Assembly: GCF_003362805.1 (NCBI RefSeq)
Contig: NZ_QNQT01000001.1
Span: forward strand, 1-64,000
Source: Neobacillus piezotolerans
GTDB lineage: Bacteria; Bacillota; Bacilli; Bacillales; Cytobacillaceae
Direction of reading: 5' to 3'
DNA length: 64,000 bases
In this document: piece by piece, positions 56,973 to 64,000 of the stretch
How positions within the stretch are numbered: the first letter of the stretch is position 1
How the letters are laid out: each line of letters opens with the position of its first letter
Made by a program: the position numbers and the translations under genes
Notes under the pieces: generated by a model
Databases searched by the model: none
The model's input: only the letters and a program-made list of their open reading frames with translations
Told to the model about the DNA's origin: nothing

Positions 56973-57026
56973 GCGAACAGTGCCTGTCACTCCCCGAATT
57001 TTCTTGTTTCACAGAAATGTTTCACA
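56973..57026 (+). repeat. GCGAACAGTGCCTGTC repeat, copy 1
   Basis: Begins GCGAACAGTGCCTGTCACTC and includes the CCCGAATTTTCTTGTTTCAC block that is shared with the copies at 58960 and 59033. All three have the same orientation. Confidence 0.8.
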
Positions 57027-57246: not shown

Positions 57247-58908
57247 TTGAAAATGAATCGAAATTTAAAAAAGAAACTAGCTGGTGTCTCAGTGGCCGCT
57301 GCGGTCGCCGTTTCTTCTTTAGGCTTTGCCGGGTACAACAATTTTACTGAAGCAAAAGACACGAAAAAGCAACCTACCAACGTCATTATGATGGTGATGG
57401 ACGGTACAAGCGCGGGAGCTACTTCTCTCGCAAGATGGTACAAAGGCGGGAACCTGGCATTGGATGAAATCCTTATTGGGGGAGTTCGAACCCATTCTGC
57501 CGAATCCGCGATTACTGATTCTGCCCCAGCTGCAACAGCGCTGGCAACAGGAAATAAGAGCAACGATAAAATTGTTGGACTTCTCCCTCAGGTTGTGAAT
57601 ACTCCTGGTGTGGATTCAGTTGACCCTAAAGATGCATTAAAACCGGTTGCGAACGTTTTAGAAGGCGCGAAACTACAGGGCAAGGCAACTGGAATCATTT
57701 CTACTTCAGAAATCCAGCATGCTACGCCTGCAGGGTTTTCTTCCCATGCGGCACATCGCAGCAATTACCAGGACATTGCCGAGCAGCAAGTTTACCAGGG
57801 AATTGATGTTGTTCTTGGTGGAGGAAAAGAATCACTCGCGCCAGGCACAACAAAAAATGCGCGTGTTGATGGAGAAAATCTTTTAAACGTATTGAATCAA
57901 AATGGATATGATTTTGTAGAGACAAGGGATCAATTATTAAATTCAAAGTCTGAAAAGATTTGGGGTTCATTTGCTCCTTCCGCACTTGCATATGACTTCG
58001 ATCGTAAGAAAGTAAACAATAGCGAACCATCCCTTGCTGAAATGACAAATAAAGCAATCAATACATTATCCAAGGATAAAGACGGCTTCTTCCTATTTGT
58101 AGAAGGAAGTAAAGTGGACTGGGCCGCTCACGCTAATGATACAATTGGCATGCTTAGCGATGTATTGGCTTTTGACGATGCGGTAAAAGAGGCTTTGGAA
58201 TTCGCGAAAAAAGATGGAAACACTATGGTTATCGCTGTGAGTGATCACGGCAACAGCGGTATCACAATGGGTAACCAGAACACCAACTCCAACTACCCTG
58301 AGATTCCAGTTTCAACTTACATTGATCCATTGAAGAAAGCATCGATGACTGTTGAAGGGGCATTGAAGCAGCTAAAAGCCGACCGCTCCAATATGAAAGA
58401 AGTAGCTGAATTATATGGTCTGGATAACCTTTCACAAGAGGAAATTGACGCTTTAAAAGCATCAAAAACCTTGCAAGCGGATATGGTGAAAATGCTGGCT
58501 AACCGTGCGAACATTGGTTTCACGACTGGTGGCCATACCGGTGAAGATGTCTTCCTTTATGCGTACGGCCCATCAAAACCGTACGGACTGATCGACAATA
58601 CCGACATCGCGAAAACAATGGCAAAATTCATGGGCTTCGACCTGAAACAAACATCCAACAAGCTCTTTGTCAATGCAAGGGAATCATTTGAAAATAAAGG
58701 CTACACTACTCGCATTGATGTAACTGATAAACATAACCCTGTATTCATTGCAGAGAAACAAACGATCAAGATTGAAATCCCTGTTAACAAAAATGTTGCC
58801 CACGTCACTCAAAACCAAAAAACGTCCACCAAGACACTTGACGGTGTAACTGTATATAACGGGAAAGACTTCTTTGTATCCCAAAGTGCATTAAATCTGT
58901 CAAAATAA
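57247..58908 (+). CDS. Secreted alkaline phosphatase
   Basis: A 553-residue exported alkaline phosphatase. The signal peptide is about 1-35 (KKKLAGVSVAAAVAVSSLGF). VIMMVMDGTSAG holds the first metal Asp, ITDSAPAATALATG the nucleophilic Ser, FLFVEGSKVDWAAHAND and VIAVSDHGNSGITMG further ligands, and FTTGGHTGEDVFLYAYG the C-terminal His. It releases phosphate from phosphomonoesters outside the cell. TTG start at 57247 behind GGGGG. Confidence 0.93.
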   Translation: MKMNRNLKKKLAGVSVAAAVAVSSLGFAGYNNFTEAKDTKKQPTNVIMMVMDGTSAGATSLARWYKGGNLALDEILIGGVRTHSAESAITDSAPAATALATGNKSNDKIVGLLPQVVNTPGVDSVDPKDALKPVANVLEGAKLQGKATGIISTSEIQHATPAGFSSHAAHRSNYQDIAEQQVYQGIDVVLGGGKESLAPGTTKNARVDGENLLNVLNQNGYDFVETRDQLLNSKSEKIWGSFAPSALAYDFDRKKVNNSEPSLAEMTNKAINTLSKDKDGFFLFVEGSKVDWAAHANDTIGMLSDVLAFDDAVKEALEFAKKDGNTMVIAVSDHGNSGITMGNQNTNSNYPEIPVSTYIDPLKKASMTVEGALKQLKADRSNMKEVAELYGLDNLSQEEIDALKASKTLQADMVKMLANRANIGFTTGGHTGEDVFLYAYGPSKPYGLIDNTDIAKTMAKFMGFDLKQTSNKLFVNARESFENKGYTTRIDVTDKHNPVFIAEKQTIKIEIPVNKNVAHVTQNQKTSTKTLDGVTVYNGKDFFVSQSALNLSK

Positions 58909-58922
58909 TAGCGTAAAAAATT

Positions 58923-58957
58923 GTGCTTCCCCAGATAACCCGGGGAAGCACTTTTTT
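58923..58957 (+). terminator. Terminator of the alkaline phosphatase gene
   Basis: GTGCTTCCCC pairs perfectly with GGGGAAGCAC, followed by TTTTTT. Confidence 0.88.
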
Positions 58958-58959
58958 AT

Positions 58960-59013
58960 GCGAACAGTGCCTGTCCCTCCCCGAATTTTCTTGTTTCACG
59001 GAGTGTTTCACAG
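58960..59013 (+). repeat. GCGAACAGTGCCTGTC repeat, copy 2
   Basis: Same block as copy 1, starting right after the phosphatase terminator and ending with GGAGTGTTTCACAG. Confidence 0.8.
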
Positions 59014-59032
59014 CGGTTTGGCGTAGGAAAAT

Positions 59033-59084
59033 GCGAACAGTGCCTGTCCCTCCCTGTTTTTTTGTTTCACGGAGTGTTTCACAG
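59033..59084 (+). repeat. GCGAACAGTGCCTGTC repeat, copy 3
   Basis: Direct repeat of copy 2 after a 19-base gap. Its downstream flank (ACCGGAACACCGAAATGCCA) resembles the flank of copy 1, so the homologous unit is longer than the core. Confidence 0.8.
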
Positions 59085-59273
59085 TTAACCGGAACACCGA
59101 AATGCCACTGCTGAAACTATCCGCTTATCCTCGAGAGGAAAGTGGATTTTTATGTTTCGCAGTGCTCGTACAACTGAATTTTCTTATCCAATGAGAACAC
59201 CACAGATCGGCATTCTCACCTTGAGTTCTCAAGTCGGTGCTGATTGAAAAAAAGTGATATTTTTTAAGTGCCT

Positions 59274-59451
59274 TTGACAATGAAAATAAAGATAAAAACG
59301 TTTACTTGGAAATAGGCTCTTACATCAGTAACAGCGGCCTAAAATAAATCATACTTTGTTGAGGAGAGTACACGAATTATCTGATGGATGGATATGCCCA
59401 AATTGATTATTAATCCTTTCAGCTCTCACGTCAGGTGTTGGCTTCACCTGA
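59274..59451 (+). promoter_or_regulatory. Leader region of the TOMM cluster
   Basis: 59085-59478 has no gene. A TTGACA at 59274 is a possible -35 without a clear -10. TAAAAACGTTTACT (59293-59306) resembles a CcpA cre site with two mismatches. TCAGGTG and CACCTGA (59431-59451) form a hairpin followed by TAAAAAATA, 30 bases before the precursor start, which could attenuate or protect the leader. Confidence 0.35.
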
Positions 59452-59478
59452 TAAAAAATATACAAAGGAGAGGGAAAA

Positions 59479-59787
59479 ATGCAGAATTTTCAAAATCCAT
59501 TGCAAAGCTTGGAAATTGCCCCATACCAAGCTGGCGAGTTAATTCCTCTGGATCCTTATAGTGAGGATGCACGGTTTGGCCGTTGCGGAGGCTTTGGCCG
59601 TTGCGGAGGCTTTGGCCGCTGTGGAGGATTTGGCCGTTGCGGAGGTTTTGGTTTTGGTCGTTGCGGAGGCTTTTTCCGTTGTGGCGGTTGCGGCGGTTGT
59701 TTTGGTTTTGGTTGCGGTGGTTGTTTCGGTTTTGGTTGCGGTGGTTGTTTCGGTTTTAGTTGTTTCGGCATTGGCTTTTGGATTTAA
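59479..59787 (+). CDS. TOMM precursor peptide, heterocycloanthracin type
   Basis: A 102-residue precursor of a thiazole/oxazole-modified microcin. Residues 1-32 form the leader (with LQSLEIAPYQAGELIPLD, the probable recognition segment). Residues 33-102 form the core: four FGRCGG repeats, FGFGRCGG, FFRCGG, then CGGCFGFG-type repeats and the end SCFGIGFWI. The core has 13 Cys (36, 42, 48, 54, 62, 68, 71, 74, 79, 82, 87, 90, 95), one Ser (94) and no Thr, so at most 13 thiazolines/thiazoles plus one oxazole. AAAGGAGAGG precedes the ATG. Heterocycloanthracin-type precursors of Bacillus have this layout; antibacterial activity is inferred. Confidence 0.92.
   Translation: MQNFQNPLQSLEIAPYQAGELIPLDPYSEDARFGRCGGFGRCGGFGRCGGFGRCGGFGFGRCGGFFRCGGCGGCFGFGCGGCFGFGCGGCFGFSCFGIGFWI
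59575..59646 (+). repeat. 18-bp tandem repeats encoding FGRCGG
   Basis: Four consecutive 18-base units start with TTTGGCCGTTGCGGAGGC and differ only at third codon positions. They can expand or contract by slippage, changing the number of modifiable Cys. Confidence 0.9.
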
Positions 59788-59812
59788 AAAAACTTGTATT
59801 TTACCAAAATGT

Positions 59813-59848
59813 GTGTCCCTGCGAGCTTATGGCAGGGACACTGCTTTT
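59813..59848 (+). terminator. Hairpin between precursor and maturation genes
   Basis: GTGTCCCTGC pairs perfectly with GCAGGGACAC, followed by TGCTTTTGT. The T-run is broken, so it is likely a partial terminator that lets the precursor transcript exceed the enzyme transcripts. Confidence 0.65.
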
Positions 59849-60004
59849 GTAAAAATAGAAAGTATACCTTCTCTTCGAGAATTGTCCAACTCCACAAGAG
59901 TAAGCTTCGAAGGCGCTTTCGCTTTTCATAAATCATATGGGACAAATAAAACTACATAGAATAATAGTGCAGAGTTGTATTGATTAGAATTAAGGAGGAG
60001 CGGA

Positions 60005-61942
60005 ATGACAAAACTTAACTCGTCAACAAGGCTGAAGGTAAAAAGAGATACATTTTATCTGCCAGATCCAGAAGGTGGTGTGTATTTTAGAAATAACGAA
60101 AGCTCTTTCCGAATGAAAGGCAGTACGATTTATCAGTGGATCGAAACGCTGATGCCAATGTTCAACGGGGAGCGAACATTGGGGGAATTAACAGAGGGAC
60201 TAACTGCCCAGTATAGCACAAGGGTATATGAGATTGGAGAAACGTTGTTCAAGAATGGTTTTGTACGAGATATAAGTCAAGAACGACCACATGAATTAAA
60301 CCGTACAGTTCTTGAAAAATATTCTTCGCAAATTGAATTTATCGAGAATTTTGTTGATTCCGGTACGTACCGATTTCAGGAGTTCCGTCAGGCTAAAGTT
60401 CTGGCAGTCGGGGCTGGTCCCATTTTAGTTTCTTTGGTGGGTGCATTGATTGAATCGGGACTTCCTAAATTCAATTTTCTGGCAACTGAATCGATGCCTA
60501 CAAATCGACTGCGGATTGCTGAGCTGGTGCAGAATGCCCGTGAAGTCGACTCCGAGGTGGAGGTTAAGGGAATCCCATTTGAAAAAGGGGAACACAAAGG
60601 TTTTTGGAAACAAGCTGTGAAAGCCTATGATTGGGTTCTATATGTCTCGCAGGATGGGAATGTAAATGAACTTAGGAACCTTAATGCAGTTTGCAAGGAG
60701 GAAGGAAAGGTATTCCTGCCTGCTATATGTTTAGAACAGGTAGGGCTATCTGGGCCTGTCGTTCATCCAGAATCAGAGGAATGCTGGGAGTCTGCTTGGC
60801 GCCGCCTTCATCATTCTGCCGTTGGAGTAGTTAATCAGCAGCCTAACAACTTCTCTTCAACAGCTGGATCCATTTTGGCAAATGTCCTTGTATTTGAATT
60901 TTTCAAGAAGGCTGCAGGCATTGCAGGTTCGACTCAAAGCAATCAAATTTACATGCTTGATCTTGAAACATTGGAAGGCGACTGGTTATCATTCCTTGCA
61001 CACCCTTTGGTTACGTCTACAAATACAACGCCAAGGCTGTTAGAAGACCTTGATTTAAGGATTGAACATGAATCTAACAGAAATTCTCCACCTACTAAAC
61101 TATTGGAATACTTTAGTCTGTTAACTTCTGAAGAGATAGGAATTCTCCATACATGGGAGGAACGGGATTTGACACAGCTGCCTCTGGCGCAGTGTTATGT
61201 TCAGGCAGTTAATCCAGTTTCCGAGGGGCCATCAGAACTTCTTCCCGAAGTAATTTGTGCTGGTTTAACACATGAGGAAGCAAAACGGCATGCCGGGCTG
61301 ACTGGCGTTGAAATGTACGTTTCCCAATTGATCGATAACTCGAGCGCTCAAGAGGGTTTTATGGGTATCGGAGCGGGAGAAACAATCGAAGAGGCCGTTT
61401 GCCGAGGGCTGCAAAGATTTTTGGATGAAGAATTAAATGAAAGAAAGGGAGACCAACAGGGAACGATTATAGATTTGCAGCAAGTATTAATTGAGGATAA
61501 GCATTGCAGATATTATTTAAATGCACTGAACACCTTAAATGGTCCATCGAACATCGAGTTAAGAGACGATATTCTGGGTTTCCCTGTCATACGGGTAAGG
61601 TCGAAAGGCCAATCGTACACAAAGGCAGGTATAAATTTAACACTTGCATTACGAAATGCATTACAACTAGCACTTTTAAATACTCAAAACCAGGTTCATT
61701 CAATGATAAGGCAAAAAAAAGAGCCAGCCGATTTTTTGGAAAAAAGGGGATTCAGACTCAACATTCCTTCTTGTGATGAAATGACTCAATTAGAGCTACT
61801 GCAATCTGCTATTCAAGTCTTAAAAGAAAATAGGAAACACTTGTTTGTTTATGATCTTTCGTTCGAACCTTTTTTAAAAGAGGAACTAACAGGGGTATTT
61901 GGGGTACAGGTTCGGGAGGAGGAATCCTATTGGCAGCATTAA
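60005..61942 (+). CDS. ThiF-like thiazole-containing bacteriocin maturation protein
   Basis: A 645-residue protein of the group known as putative thiazole-containing bacteriocin maturation protein. The N-terminal 110 residues resemble a peptide-binding clamp (FRMKGSTIYQWIETLMPMFN). Residues about 120-260 resemble an E1/ThiF Rossmann core (AKVLAVGAGPILVSLVGALI) without the usual ATP-site Arg or zinc Cys. The C-terminal half is shared with this family only. It is expected to help recruit the leader peptide to the cyclodehydratase. AAGGAGGAG precedes the ATG, and the last 13 bases overlap the YcaO gene. Confidence 0.85.
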   Translation: MTKLNSSTRLKVKRDTFYLPDPEGGVYFRNNESSFRMKGSTIYQWIETLMPMFNGERTLGELTEGLTAQYSTRVYEIGETLFKNGFVRDISQERPHELNRTVLEKYSSQIEFIENFVDSGTYRFQEFRQAKVLAVGAGPILVSLVGALIESGLPKFNFLATESMPTNRLRIAELVQNAREVDSEVEVKGIPFEKGEHKGFWKQAVKAYDWVLYVSQDGNVNELRNLNAVCKEEGKVFLPAICLEQVGLSGPVVHPESEECWESAWRRLHHSAVGVVNQQPNNFSSTAGSILANVLVFEFFKKAAGIAGSTQSNQIYMLDLETLEGDWLSFLAHPLVTSTNTTPRLLEDLDLRIEHESNRNSPPTKLLEYFSLLTSEEIGILHTWEERDLTQLPLAQCYVQAVNPVSEGPSELLPEVICAGLTHEEAKRHAGLTGVEMYVSQLIDNSSAQEGFMGIGAGETIEEAVCRGLQRFLDEELNERKGDQQGTIIDLQQVLIEDKHCRYYLNALNTLNGPSNIELRDDILGFPVIRVRSKGQSYTKAGINLTLALRNALQLALLNTQNQVHSMIRQKKEPADFLEKRGFRLNIPSCDEMTQLELLQSAIQVLKENRKHLFVYDLSFEPFLKEELTGVFGVQVREEESYWQH

Positions 61943-63870
61943 TTCTAATGGATGGAAAGGGATTATTGGCAGATCTTGTCTATAATCAATTGTTTGGAAG
62001 CCATAACATAAAGCGTCAAAGTATAGGAGAAGACGTTCCGGCTGAGACAGGGTTAGCTCTTGTACTCCATGATACTTGGCAACCATTGGTTCATCAAAAA
62101 GCGGAGGAAAGACTTAGGGAAGCAGGCATCCCATGGCTTCGAGGTTTCGTTTCGTTTGGGGAAGGAATCATTGGTCCATTCGTACACCCAGATACACCGG
62201 GATGTTCCTGCTGTGCTGATATCCGGATTTTAATAGCGGGTTCAGATCAACGGGAAATGTTGGCGTTTCGAGGGCAAAGGGCAGCAGGAGAAGGTCCACT
62301 GCGAGATGCCTGGGTATCGCACACGGGATTAGCTCAAATGGCAGATTTGATCAGTAATGAAGTAAGGAGAATTCTTCAAGGAGAGCCCAGCAACTTACAG
62401 GAAAAAGTATTCATTATGAATCTGAAGACGTTATCAACTTCTAGTCACTTTTTCTTGCCTGACCCATCGTGCCCGATGTGCAGTTCATTGGCCATAGACA
62501 CATCTGAATTAGCCCGAATCCGTTTAGAATCAAGTCCTAAAATCAATGGTGGCAGTTATCGCAGTCGTTCGATGGATGAATTAAAAGCTGTGCTAGTTAA
62601 AGATTACCTCGATCCGCGTACCGGAATAATGAATGGGAAAATGCAAGATATCAGGCTGCCGTTTGCTGATGTTTTAGTGATGATGCCTCTGTTTGGGGGA
62701 ATTGAGGGGGTAGCAGGGCGGACTAATTCTTATGAAATAAGTGAGTTGACTGCCATTTTGGAAGGTTTGGAGCGATATTGCGGAATCGAGCCTCGAGGAA
62801 AAAGGACAGTCGTTCGTGATAGTTATCGCCATTTAGAAAATAACGCATTAAATCCTACAAGTGTAGGTGTTCATGAACCCAAAAACTATGAAAAGCCTCA
62901 TTTTCCTTTTAAAAAGTTTGATCCTGATGCCGCAATGGATTGGGTCTGGGGTTACTCATTTTTACAAGAACGCCCGCTTCTGGTTCCAGAGTTACTCGCC
63001 TACTATAGTTTAGGCTGTGGGGAGGGCTTTGTATATGAAACATCAAACGGATGCGCATTAGGGGGGAGTTTAGAGGAAGCCATTTTTCATGGCATCATGG
63101 AGGTAGTCGAACGGGATTCATTCTTATTATCCTGGTATGCCAAGCTCCCCCTTCCACGGCTTGATCTTCGTTCGGCAAACGATACAGAAGTACAGCTGAT
63201 GGTGGACCGTATTCAAGAAGTGGCGGGGTATGACCTTTATCTTTATAATTCAACAATGGAGCATGGTATTCCAAGTGTGTGGGCAGTGGCAAAAAACAGA
63301 AGATCTGAAGGTGTAAACATTATTTGTGCAGCAGGTGCAAACCCTGATCCTATAAAGGCCGTAAAGAGCGCAATATTCGAGCTTGCGGGAATGATGTTTA
63401 GGGATGATGAAAAATTGGAGACAAATAGACAGACATATGAAAGGATGCTGCACGATTCGTTCGAAGTCCGGACTATGGAGGACCATGGTATGTTATACGG
63501 GTTGAAAGAGGCAGAGGAACGTCTGAACTTTTTATTGGAAGATCATGGTCCCTTACGTACGTTTGCTGAGGAATTTAAGGAGCCGCCTGCCTATGCTGAT
63601 TTAAAGGATGATCTTCAAGTTATCCTTCAGAGGTTCCGAAGTTTGAATCTTGATGTGATTGTAGTTGACCAAACCTCGCCTACCATCAAACGGAATGGAT
63701 TGTTCTGTGTAAAAGTAATCATTCCCGGCATGCTGCCCATGACATTTGGGCATCACCTTACTCGCGTGAAAGGTTTGGAACGGGTGCTCAAGATACCCAT
63801 GCAGCTAGGATTTAAGGCGAAACCATTAACGTATGAACAGCTTAATCCATTTCCCCATCCATTCCCATAG
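61930..63870 (+). CDS. Fused TOMM leader-binding/YcaO cyclodehydratase
   Basis: A 646-residue fusion. Residues about 1-200 are the ThiF-like SagC-type part, with zinc-type Cys pairs GCSCCAD and SCPMCSS. Residues about 230-646 are a YcaO domain: SYEISELTAILEGLERYCGI and EEAIFHGIMEVVERDSFLLS carry ATP/Mg ligands, and the protein ends in NPFPHPFP, the proline-rich C terminus typical of azoline-forming YcaO enzymes. It uses ATP to cyclise Cys residues into thiazolines. Starts at TTG 61930 behind GGGAGGAGG, overlapping the ThiF-like gene. Confidence 0.92.
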   Translation: MAALILMDGKGLLADLVYNQLFGSHNIKRQSIGEDVPAETGLALVLHDTWQPLVHQKAEERLREAGIPWLRGFVSFGEGIIGPFVHPDTPGCSCCADIRILIAGSDQREMLAFRGQRAAGEGPLRDAWVSHTGLAQMADLISNEVRRILQGEPSNLQEKVFIMNLKTLSTSSHFFLPDPSCPMCSSLAIDTSELARIRLESSPKINGGSYRSRSMDELKAVLVKDYLDPRTGIMNGKMQDIRLPFADVLVMMPLFGGIEGVAGRTNSYEISELTAILEGLERYCGIEPRGKRTVVRDSYRHLENNALNPTSVGVHEPKNYEKPHFPFKKFDPDAAMDWVWGYSFLQERPLLVPELLAYYSLGCGEGFVYETSNGCALGGSLEEAIFHGIMEVVERDSFLLSWYAKLPLPRLDLRSANDTEVQLMVDRIQEVAGYDLYLYNSTMEHGIPSVWAVAKNRRSEGVNIICAAGANPDPIKAVKSAIFELAGMMFRDDEKLETNRQTYERMLHDSFEVRTMEDHGMLYGLKEAEERLNFLLEDHGPLRTFAEEFKEPPAYADLKDDLQVILQRFRSLNLDVIVVDQTSPTIKRNGLFCVKVIIPGMLPMTFGHHLTRVKGLERVLKIPMQLGFKAKPLTYEQLNPFPHPFP

Positions 63871-63894
63871 TGGAAGAGTAGGAGGACAAAACAT

Positions 63895-64000
63895 TTGGAA
63901 CTGGACACATTTATACACCAACTGCATTTTGACACGGAAAAAATCTTTCCGCCAGATTGGGAAGTGGATTGGGACGACGCGCCACTTCCCTATAAATTGT
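63895..64000 (+). CDS. SagB-type dehydrogenase, 5' end only
   Basis: A gene starting at TTG 63895 (GGAGGAC upstream) runs off the window. The 35 visible residues, including FHQLHFDTEKIFPPDW-like and VDWDDAPLPYKL, match the N terminus of SagB/ThcOx-family proteins of Bacillus TOMM clusters. SagB enzymes use FMN to oxidise thiazolines to thiazoles. The catalytic part, and any transporter or immunity genes, lie beyond 64000. Confidence 0.75.
   Translation, partial: MELDTFIHQLHFDTEKIFPPDWEVDWDDAPLPYKL

Follow-up and report, generated by a model that had tools for sequence, protein, structure and literature searches.

A sporulation-type promoter before heterocycloanthracin precursor genes points to expression in the late mother cell

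When does a cell make a heterocycloanthracin (HCA), and what is the peptide for? The question is raised by the end of the window, the 64,000-nucleotide stretch of Neobacillus piezotolerans DNA that we analyzed. A preliminary description had recognized an HCA-type TOMM cluster there and had taken its product to be an antibacterial peptide. Positions 59479 to 63870, together with a SagB gene that runs on to contig position 65469, form a four-gene HCA cassette in the order A-F-D-B on the forward strand. The precursor gene, A (59479 to 59787), encodes 102 amino acids and matches TIGR03601 at 49.3 bits (cutoff, 35). F (60005 to 61942; TIGR03693, 773 bits) is an ocin-ThiF-like, leader-binding protein. 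D (61930 to 63870; TTG start) overlaps the F reading frame by 13 bases and ends in ...NPFPHPFP; it is a YcaO protein (PF02624, 297 bits), and the presence of TIGR03604 (414 bits) and TIGR03882 (146 bits) in the same protein makes it a fused C-D cyclodehydratase. For HCAs, a C domain shorter by about 100 residues is given as a trait in the available text of Cox 2015. Only the start of B, the SagB dehydrogenase, lies in the window (63895 to 64000; TTG start; TIGR03605, 210.5 bits), and the whole protein has 524 amino acids (L002:6896-8470). A TIGR03601 precursor, an ocin-ThiF-like F protein, a fused YcaO cyclodehydratase, and a SagB dehydrogenase, all traits of an HCA cluster, are therefore present. 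These family matches bear out the cluster type and the earlier recognition of a ThiF-like frame, a YcaO fusion with a PFPHPFP end, and a SagB start. The family has been known since 2009 (Haft 2009; Cox 2015).

The precursor consists of a 32-residue leader (59479 to 59574) and a 70-residue core (59575 to 59784), and the 13 cysteines and two modules described earlier for the core are there, with the cysteines spaced by 6, 6, 6, 8, 6, 3, 3, 5, 3, 5, 3, and 5. Such a core is ordinary for the family: 102 precursors hold both modules, with RCGG first in 51 and CF first in 51, and the order tracks the leader type. The suggestion that the exact core may be new holds only trivially, in that the closest of the precursors compared, from Bacillus sp. 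FJAT-27445 (L157), shares 81% identity with it; cores differ all through the family. It had also been proposed that the Arg-rich module binds anionic membranes while the Phe/Gly/Cys module becomes a rigid polythiazole. The composition of the core is as that proposal describes. However, the order of the modules flips with leader type, so no fixed architecture is conserved, and we regard the mechanism as very improbable. The precursor has no Pfam match up to an E value of 0.01 and in NCBIfam matches TIGR03601 only. Since it matches no known coat family, we did not file it as a known coat protein.

The sequence upstream of A carries traits of the late mother-cell regulon. A sigma-K-like promoter on the forward strand (59330 to 59358) consists of AACA at -35 (59330 to 59333), a 16-nucleotide spacer, and CATACTTTG at -10 (59350 to 59358). 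Upstream of the -35 element there is a GerE-like box, AAATAGGCTCTT (59310 to 59321, forward strand), every letter of which fits RWWTRGGYNNYY, which we take to be the GerE consensus; the box starts 40 nucleotides before the CATA of the -10 element. From the position of this promoter, the predicted 5' untranslated leader spans 59359 to 59478 and contains the ribosome-binding site AAAGGAGAGGG (59464 to 59474). Two other candidates in this region were rejected. A simple scan of 58900 to 60100 for a sigma-A promoter gave two sites, neither on the forward strand, against a shuffle mean of 2.0. The sole Rfam match scored 17.8 bits, below the gathering score of 114, and was discarded.

We asked whether other HCA precursors share this arrangement, using 111 precursors from outside the B. 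cereus group, in which the name HCA originated. The GerE-like box precedes 95 of them (shuffle mean, 6.6; opposite strand, 13), and the strict sigma-K pattern precedes 74 (shuffle mean, 5.9; opposite strand, 8). The relaxed pattern [AG]C-N16-18-CATA was found before 108 of the 111, with a shuffle mean of 27.6. The box followed by a relaxed -35 element and CATA was present in 95, where 0.12 would be expected and the opposite strand gave none. The spacing is narrow as well: the distance from box to CATA is 40 nucleotides in 79 of 94 measured cases and 39 in 13. Upstream of 687 other open reading frames in 80 named loci there were 27 boxes and 36 sigma-K patterns. The composite box-N26-28-CATA was found once among these 687, before a CotD gene, compared with 93 of the 111 precursors. 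The patterns used for other sigma factors matched almost nothing before the 111 (sigma-A, 0; sigma-E, 1; sigma-F/G, 1).

The promoter is also conserved far outside the genus. Among divergent loci, where the leader model finds a precursor in 18 of 20 (the exceptions being L242, in which a Cys-rich frame is present, and L246, where no precursor lies closer than about 5 kb), the sigma-K pattern precedes all 18 (shuffle mean, 1.8), and the strict box precedes only 4. In a class-wide set, a box-like sequence with promoter was found in 13 of 24 loci (shuffle mean, 0.06; opposite strand, 0) and a loose sigma-K pattern in 18 of 24 (shuffle mean, 2.4; opposite strand, 9); this set had 26 loci, of which L404 and L416 were left out because their start codons could not be placed. 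The composite is retained in six of eight precursors unlinked to F or D, a linkage count that leaves out 4 of the 80 loci, each shorter than 9 kb. Among 86 named precursors, which share organisms with the 111 and so are not an independent set, the relaxed promoter is absent from its expected place in 7. Two of these are second genes in tandem (L195 and L196), two are near-misses (L206 and L220), one has a changed -10 element (L216), and two show nothing similar (L165 and L166). As a genome-wide finder the composite letters are not specific (in the genome that contains the window, 14 matches and 21 for the reversed control), and therefore we used only position-anchored tests.

These results bear on the view conveyed by the family name, in which growing or stationary cells make HCA as an ordinary bacteriocin and export it. 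Family annotation and the naming in the literature favor it, and sonorensin, which has been assigned to the HCA family, is reported to be antibacterial (PMC4544038). However, the sigma-A pattern found nowhere before the 111 precursors, the persistence of the sigma-K/GerE-like promoter far outside the genus, and the finding that no exporter, protease, or immunity gene of at least 100 amino acids recurs at a fixed place all argue against it, and we consider it improbable. The earlier antibacterial claim rests on the family name and the sonorensin reports, whereas both the promoter and the set of genes speak for sporulation.

A different objection is that the upstream block is real but belongs to another regulator or to a leader RNA element and is no GerE/sigma-K promoter. 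The conservation does run past the -10 element (TTTGTTGAAGAGAGT), and the GerE consensus is one that we assumed. In addition, two spore coat genes chosen as positive controls do not carry the block: the composite precedes 0 of 30 CotZ genes (box, 2; sigma-K pattern, 6; all 30 fetched loci, with the family-match start as the reference point) and 0 of 20 CotX genes (L332 to L351; the other 10 of the 30 fetched loci are either additional matches within those genomes or weaker ones). However, a similar block, at nearly the same spacing, is found before the CotD genes of this GTDB family. The box precedes 30 of 30 and the composite 29 of 30, always at 39 nucleotides; the strict sigma-K pattern is found in just 3 of 30 (shuffle mean, 1.2). 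The consensus blocks of HCA and cotD promoters resemble each other, and both their shared -10 element and the C of their -35 element are as published for sigma-K promoters (PMC517825). There is no Rfam family that matches here. We therefore think it slightly less probable still than an ordinary bacteriocin that the block serves some other regulator or RNA.

The genome of the window has the regulators that such a promoter would use: a full-length sigK (G000:C16:2577-3248) and a 74-amino-acid protein with a GerE-type helix-turn-helix (L263), which, because of its size and domain, is probably GerE proper. The F protein occurs in 0 of 15 genomes that lack a true sigK, compared with 116 of 397 overall, a co-occurrence that is confounded by phylogeny and in which 24 of the 116 F matches score below the family cutoff. 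Together, these sequence data suggest that sigma-K and GerE act at the precursor promoter in vivo and that the sporulating mother cell probably expresses HCA at a late stage. A study of B. cereus biofilm cells reports that an HCA-family gene and BC1248-50 are up, as well as sporulation genes that are up at 24 and 48 h and falling at 72 h (PMC6962202). HCA papers make no mention of a sporulation-type promoter in PMC2674419 or in the available text of PMC4603692. It is this proposed regulation of HCA that we did not find in print; the cluster type was already known, and the two-module core is ordinary.

Among genes of at least 100 amino acids in the 80 named loci, A, F, D, and B alone recur at fixed places. 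A transporter and immunity genes had been anticipated past position 64000, along with the rest of SagB. The SagB remainder was found there, but no recognizable cassette exporter or immunity gene was among the open reading frames examined, the next of which are nitroreductase-like and HipA-like kinase frames. By eye, we judged one frame on the other strand (L002:12642-13937) to be transporter-like. In a rough later screen of frames of 30 to 99 amino acids in the 80 named loci, the precursors formed the largest clusters (44 loci). Other large clusters lay between A and F (37 loci on the forward strand and 26 on the reverse) and on the minus strand over the 5' leader of the precursor (17 and 13 loci); among the 12 largest clusters, all except those of the precursors were in the A-F gap or in and before the leader region. 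We take these short frames to be conserved noncoding sequence; a small peptide encoded in the A-F gap is possible.

Because the promoter resembles that of a spore coat gene, here and in most relatives examined, the peptide is probably for the spore or its release. We propose, tentatively and at a little short of an even chance, that the whole HCA family consists of azole-modified peptides that the mother cell makes during the final hours of sporulation and lays into the outer layers of the spore, and that they are not primarily bacteriocins. Taken alone, deposition in the spore envelope seems to us about evenly balanced. The variable repeats would then resemble those of other coat and exosporium proteins. 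Starting at the cotD-like promoter, sigma-K RNA polymerase, aided by GerE, would transcribe the cassette in the mother cell. A computed hairpin between A and F (GTGTCCCTGC...GCAGGGACAC; 59813 to 59841, forward strand) is a candidate attenuator that would probably hold the precursor in excess over the enzymes; of the 64 named precursors located 60 to 260 nucleotides before F, 40 have a fold z score below -2 for the first 80 nucleotides after A. F would then bind the leader and present the core to D, which would cyclize core cysteines to thiazolines, and B would oxidize these to as many as 13 thiazoles; the single core serine could add one oxazole. Formation of azolines in vitro, dependent on F, is known for HCA from published work. 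Since no exporter, protease, or immunity gene was recognized in the cassette, the product would remain in the mother cell, with the outer layers of the spore its somewhat likelier fate and release by lysis the other.

The same late expression could instead serve an antibacterial that lysis of the mother cell frees together with the spore and that guards the niche of the spore or the germinating cell. The promoter evidence, from precursors and cotD alike, fits this too, as does the finding that no exporter gene recurs at a fixed place; in B. thuringiensis, lysis takes the place of an exporter for the crystal toxins. Competition would also fit the variable cores, and sonorensin reportedly makes membranes more permeable (PMC4544038). 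However, the sonorensin that was purified may not have been a modified cassette product. A germinating cell would also need immunity, and no immunity gene of at least 100 amino acids recurs, smaller ones having been screened only roughly. We see this as possible but less probable than deposition in the spore.

If expression is late and specific to the mother cell, then sporulating cells and spores, and not just supernatants of growing cultures, are where the product should be looked for. The members described as characterized are sonorensin and the B. thuringiensis Al Hakam HCA, and thiazoline formation in vitro has been reported, with no natural HCA structure given in the available text. HCA clusters are common: 254 were counted in Cox 2015, and TIGR03601 matches occur in 133 of the 193 genomes of this GTDB family. 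Were late, mother-cell-specific expression true, azole chemistry would gain a developmental role, and the function of an orphan family would become directly testable.

Among known systems, thiopeptide clusters with F proteins also combine a fused cyclodehydratase with an ocin-ThiF-like leader-binding protein (PMC4603692, PMC7470986). Their further enzymes are as a rule absent from HCA loci, because only A, F, D, and B recur at fixed places among frames of at least 100 amino acids in the 80 named loci. With the HCA/sonorensin family (TIGR03601), the cassette shares the leader type, the Cys-rich repeat core, and the set of F, fused CD, and B proteins; we found no structural difference, and the core sequence is individual to this locus. 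In regulation, the likeness is to the cotD promoters of the same GTDB family, which have the same AAATAGG[CT]-TTT-AGTA(A)CAA-CATA-TGTT layout with 39 to 40 nucleotides from box to CATA. Most HCA promoters are one nucleotide longer than these between box and CATA, and the HCA product, a modified peptide that has an enzyme set of its own, is no CotD homologue (no Pfam match).

Family matches to A, F, D and B bear out the preliminary description of a heterocycloanthracin (HCA)-type cluster. The precursor A (59479-59787) scored 49.3 bits against TIGR03601 (cut-off, 35) and is followed 3' by F, an ocin-ThiF-like protein (TIGR03693, 773 bits). After F comes D, a fused cyclodehydratase (TIGR03604, 414 bits; TIGR03882, 146 bits) with an F/D overlap of 13 bases, and then B, a SagB dehydrogenase (TIGR03605, 210.5 bits) that crosses the window end and stops at contig position 65469. 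The remainder of SagB was thus found beyond 64,000, where a transporter and immunity had also been sought, but no exporter, protease or immunity gene was recognized adjoining the cassette. An alkaline-phosphatase-like gene (147 bits, under the cut-off of its model) lies 5'; a nitroreductase-like ORF lies 3', as does a HipA-like kinase. A dispersed intergenic repeat (AACAGTGCCTGTCnCTCCC..TTTTCTTGTTTCACGGAGTGTTTCAC; window 56976-56994 and 58963-59082) flanks the cassette on both sides; its first part occurs in three copies in the window, and one further copy was seen by eye 3' of SagB, at about 8500-8547 of L002, a stretch of this contig.

The A-F-D-B cluster itself belongs to an already known family, which was named by Haft 2009 (PMC2674419); passages of Cox 2015 count 254 clusters and describe in vitro reconstitution of F-dependent thiazoline formation (PMC4603692). 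We found TIGR03601 in 133/193 genomes from the window's own GTDB family, Cytobacillaceae (132 above cut-off), in 94/397 genomes of the order sample (81 above) and in 71/398 of the class sample (65 above). F was present in 116/397 genomes of the order sample (92 above cut-off); of the 94 genomes with a precursor there, 93 also carried it. In some genomes (G126, G741 and G751) TIGR03601 matches six or seven times, at dispersed places.

We compared the window precursor with those of 110 loci of its own GTDB family (n = 111). The window core has 13 Cys per 70 residues, a number shared by 24 of the 111 precursors; another 26 have 14. Both the RCGG and CF modules are present in 102, in an order that divides 51 to 51 and tracks leader type. 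By sequence comparison, then, the window core is an unremarkable member of a variable family, and its two modules are general to that family, not special to the window. The suggestion that the exact core may be new holds only in that no identical one was found, the closest among the precursors compared being that of Bacillus sp. FJAT-27445 (81% identity).

We screened all ORFs of 100 aa or longer (n = 1039) in 80 F-bearing loci, the best 80 of 267 relatives (hereafter, named loci). At fixed offsets were F (80/80), D (80/80) and B (79/80), while precursors of at least 100 aa occurred in 27/80. The next most frequent cluster, whose representative looks like an ABC-type ATPase, was found in 21/80 loci at scattered offsets, and each remaining cluster of this size was in 8 or fewer of the 80. 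Among ORFs of 30 to 99 aa, the 12 largest clusters consisted solely of precursors and of frames in the A-F gap or in or before the leader region. The conserved unit is A-F-D-B. The A-F gap (window 59788-60004) is conserved in the named loci, and short frames recur in it on both strands, in 37 and 26 of 80 loci. In 40/64 loci the 80 nt directly 3' of A have a folding z-score below -2, and the hairpin there, between precursor and enzymes, suggests attenuation; the gap is likely an attenuator, and it may encode a small peptide.

Upstream of the precursor, a GerE-like box, AAATAGGCTCTT (59310-59321), lies 40 nt before a -10-like CATACTTTG (59350-59358), with AACA at 59330. We scanned 300 nt upstream of the 111 precursors, with 50 dinucleotide shuffles and the opposite strand as controls. 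The box consensus RWWTRGGYNNYY, which we take to be the GerE site, occurred in 95/111, against an average of 6.6 in shuffles (at most 11) and 13 on the opposite strand; for MACM-N15-17-CATA the count was 74/111, against 5.9 in shuffles (at most 10) and 8 on the opposite strand. The box's first ten letters with a relaxed -35 and CATA were found in 95/111, against 0.12 in shuffles (at most 1) and none on the opposite strand, and relaxed [AG]C-N16-18-CATA was found in 108/111 (shuffle mean, 27.6). Box-to-CATA spacing, measured in 94, was 40 in 79 and 39 in 13. Other sigma patterns were nearly absent from the 111 (sigma-E, 1; sigma-F/G, 1; sigma-A, 0). The C of the -35 is conserved across HCA precursor promoters; passages on sigma-K promoters describe a -10 common to sigma-E and this C as the distinguishing letter (PMC517825).

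The arrangement extends across relatives. At 30 F loci across the order, a Cys-rich ORF lay upstream in 30/30, and the composite (box plus sigma-K-like promoter) was present in 24/30. The 86 precursors located in 79 of the named loci had the box in 65, strict sigma-K in 62, box-N26-28-CATA in 64 and a relaxed promoter at the expected place in 79. All 18 precursors located in 20 divergent loci had the sigma-K pattern (shuffle mean 1.8, maximum 5), but only 4/18 had the strict box. Class-wide, with 24 out of 26 precursors included, the loose sigma-K pattern (18/24; mean 2.4) was noisy because the opposite strand also had 9; AAC-N16-18-CATA was found in 15/24 (1 on the opposite strand; mean 1.3), and a box-like match with promoter in 13/24 (none on the opposite strand; mean 0.06). 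Precursors unlinked to F or D within 10-kb loci had the composite in 6/8 and the relaxed promoter in 7/8, and linked ones had them in 56/68 and 64/68. Two loci with RCGGFCAG-type repeats, from Schinkia azotoformans (L165) and an Alkalihalobacillus macyae MAG (L166), had no sigma-K-like promoter at the expected place, and this branch may be regulated differently.

The window's own genome has a full-length sigK and encodes a GerE-type HTH protein of 74 aa, and the genera among the named relatives are generally known as endospore formers. True sigK was missing in 15/397 genomes (table read by eye; best E about 1e-17 to 1e-19), and none of the 15 carried F or a precursor (hypergeometric P, 0.005); because the genomes are related, this co-occurrence is weak support for a sporulation link. 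Under sigma-K/GerE-type control and with no exporter, the HCA cassette would fill the mother cell, as it dies, with modified peptide, and this peptide would then either coat the spore or be freed together with it. We favor coating, at roughly even chances, given the wide distribution of the cassette and the lack of a recurring immunity gene; release with the spore is a more doubtful outcome. Passages of a study of Bacillus cereus biofilm cells report upregulation of BC1248-50, which are putative bacteriocin genes, and of an HCA-family gene; its authors take this as antimicrobial production, and sporulation genes are reported up at 24 and 48 h and down at 72 h (PMC6962202). Sporulation-type regulation is probably a property of the HCA family, and a link between the two was not found in the passages searched of open-licence literature on heterocycloanthracin, ocin-ThiF or YcaO with sporulation or spore coat, other sources on HCA or sonorensin including PMC4544038, PMC7136475 and PMC7470986.

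Of 687 other ORFs in the named loci, 27 had the box upstream, 36 the sigma-K pattern and 1 box-N26-28-CATA. That lone ORF (13747-14046 of the relative's locus L158) encodes the spore-coat protein CotD (PF11122, 47.4 bits). B. subtilis cotD is a sigma-K/GerE gene; the literature passages note cotD only for SpoIIID sites. Coat genes served as controls. CotZ and CotX had the composite in 0/30 and 0/20, so the box/CATA layout marks a cotD-like subset, not all coat genes; the CotZ-type gene of the window's own genome has a box 38 nt ahead of a CATA (count by eye). Among 30 CotD genes from the window's GTDB family (L302-L331), a 59-nt promoter block reaching past the -10 is strongly conserved in 30/30. 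These genes had the box in 30/30 and box-N22-32-CATA in 29/30, all at 39 nt (shuffle mean, 0.07), with the strict sigma-K pattern in just 3/30. The HCA and CotD consensus blocks have in common AAATAGG[CT], TTT, AGTA(A)CAA and CATA...TGTT, and they differ in that box to CATA is 39 nt in the cotD promoters of this family and mostly 40 in HCA promoters.
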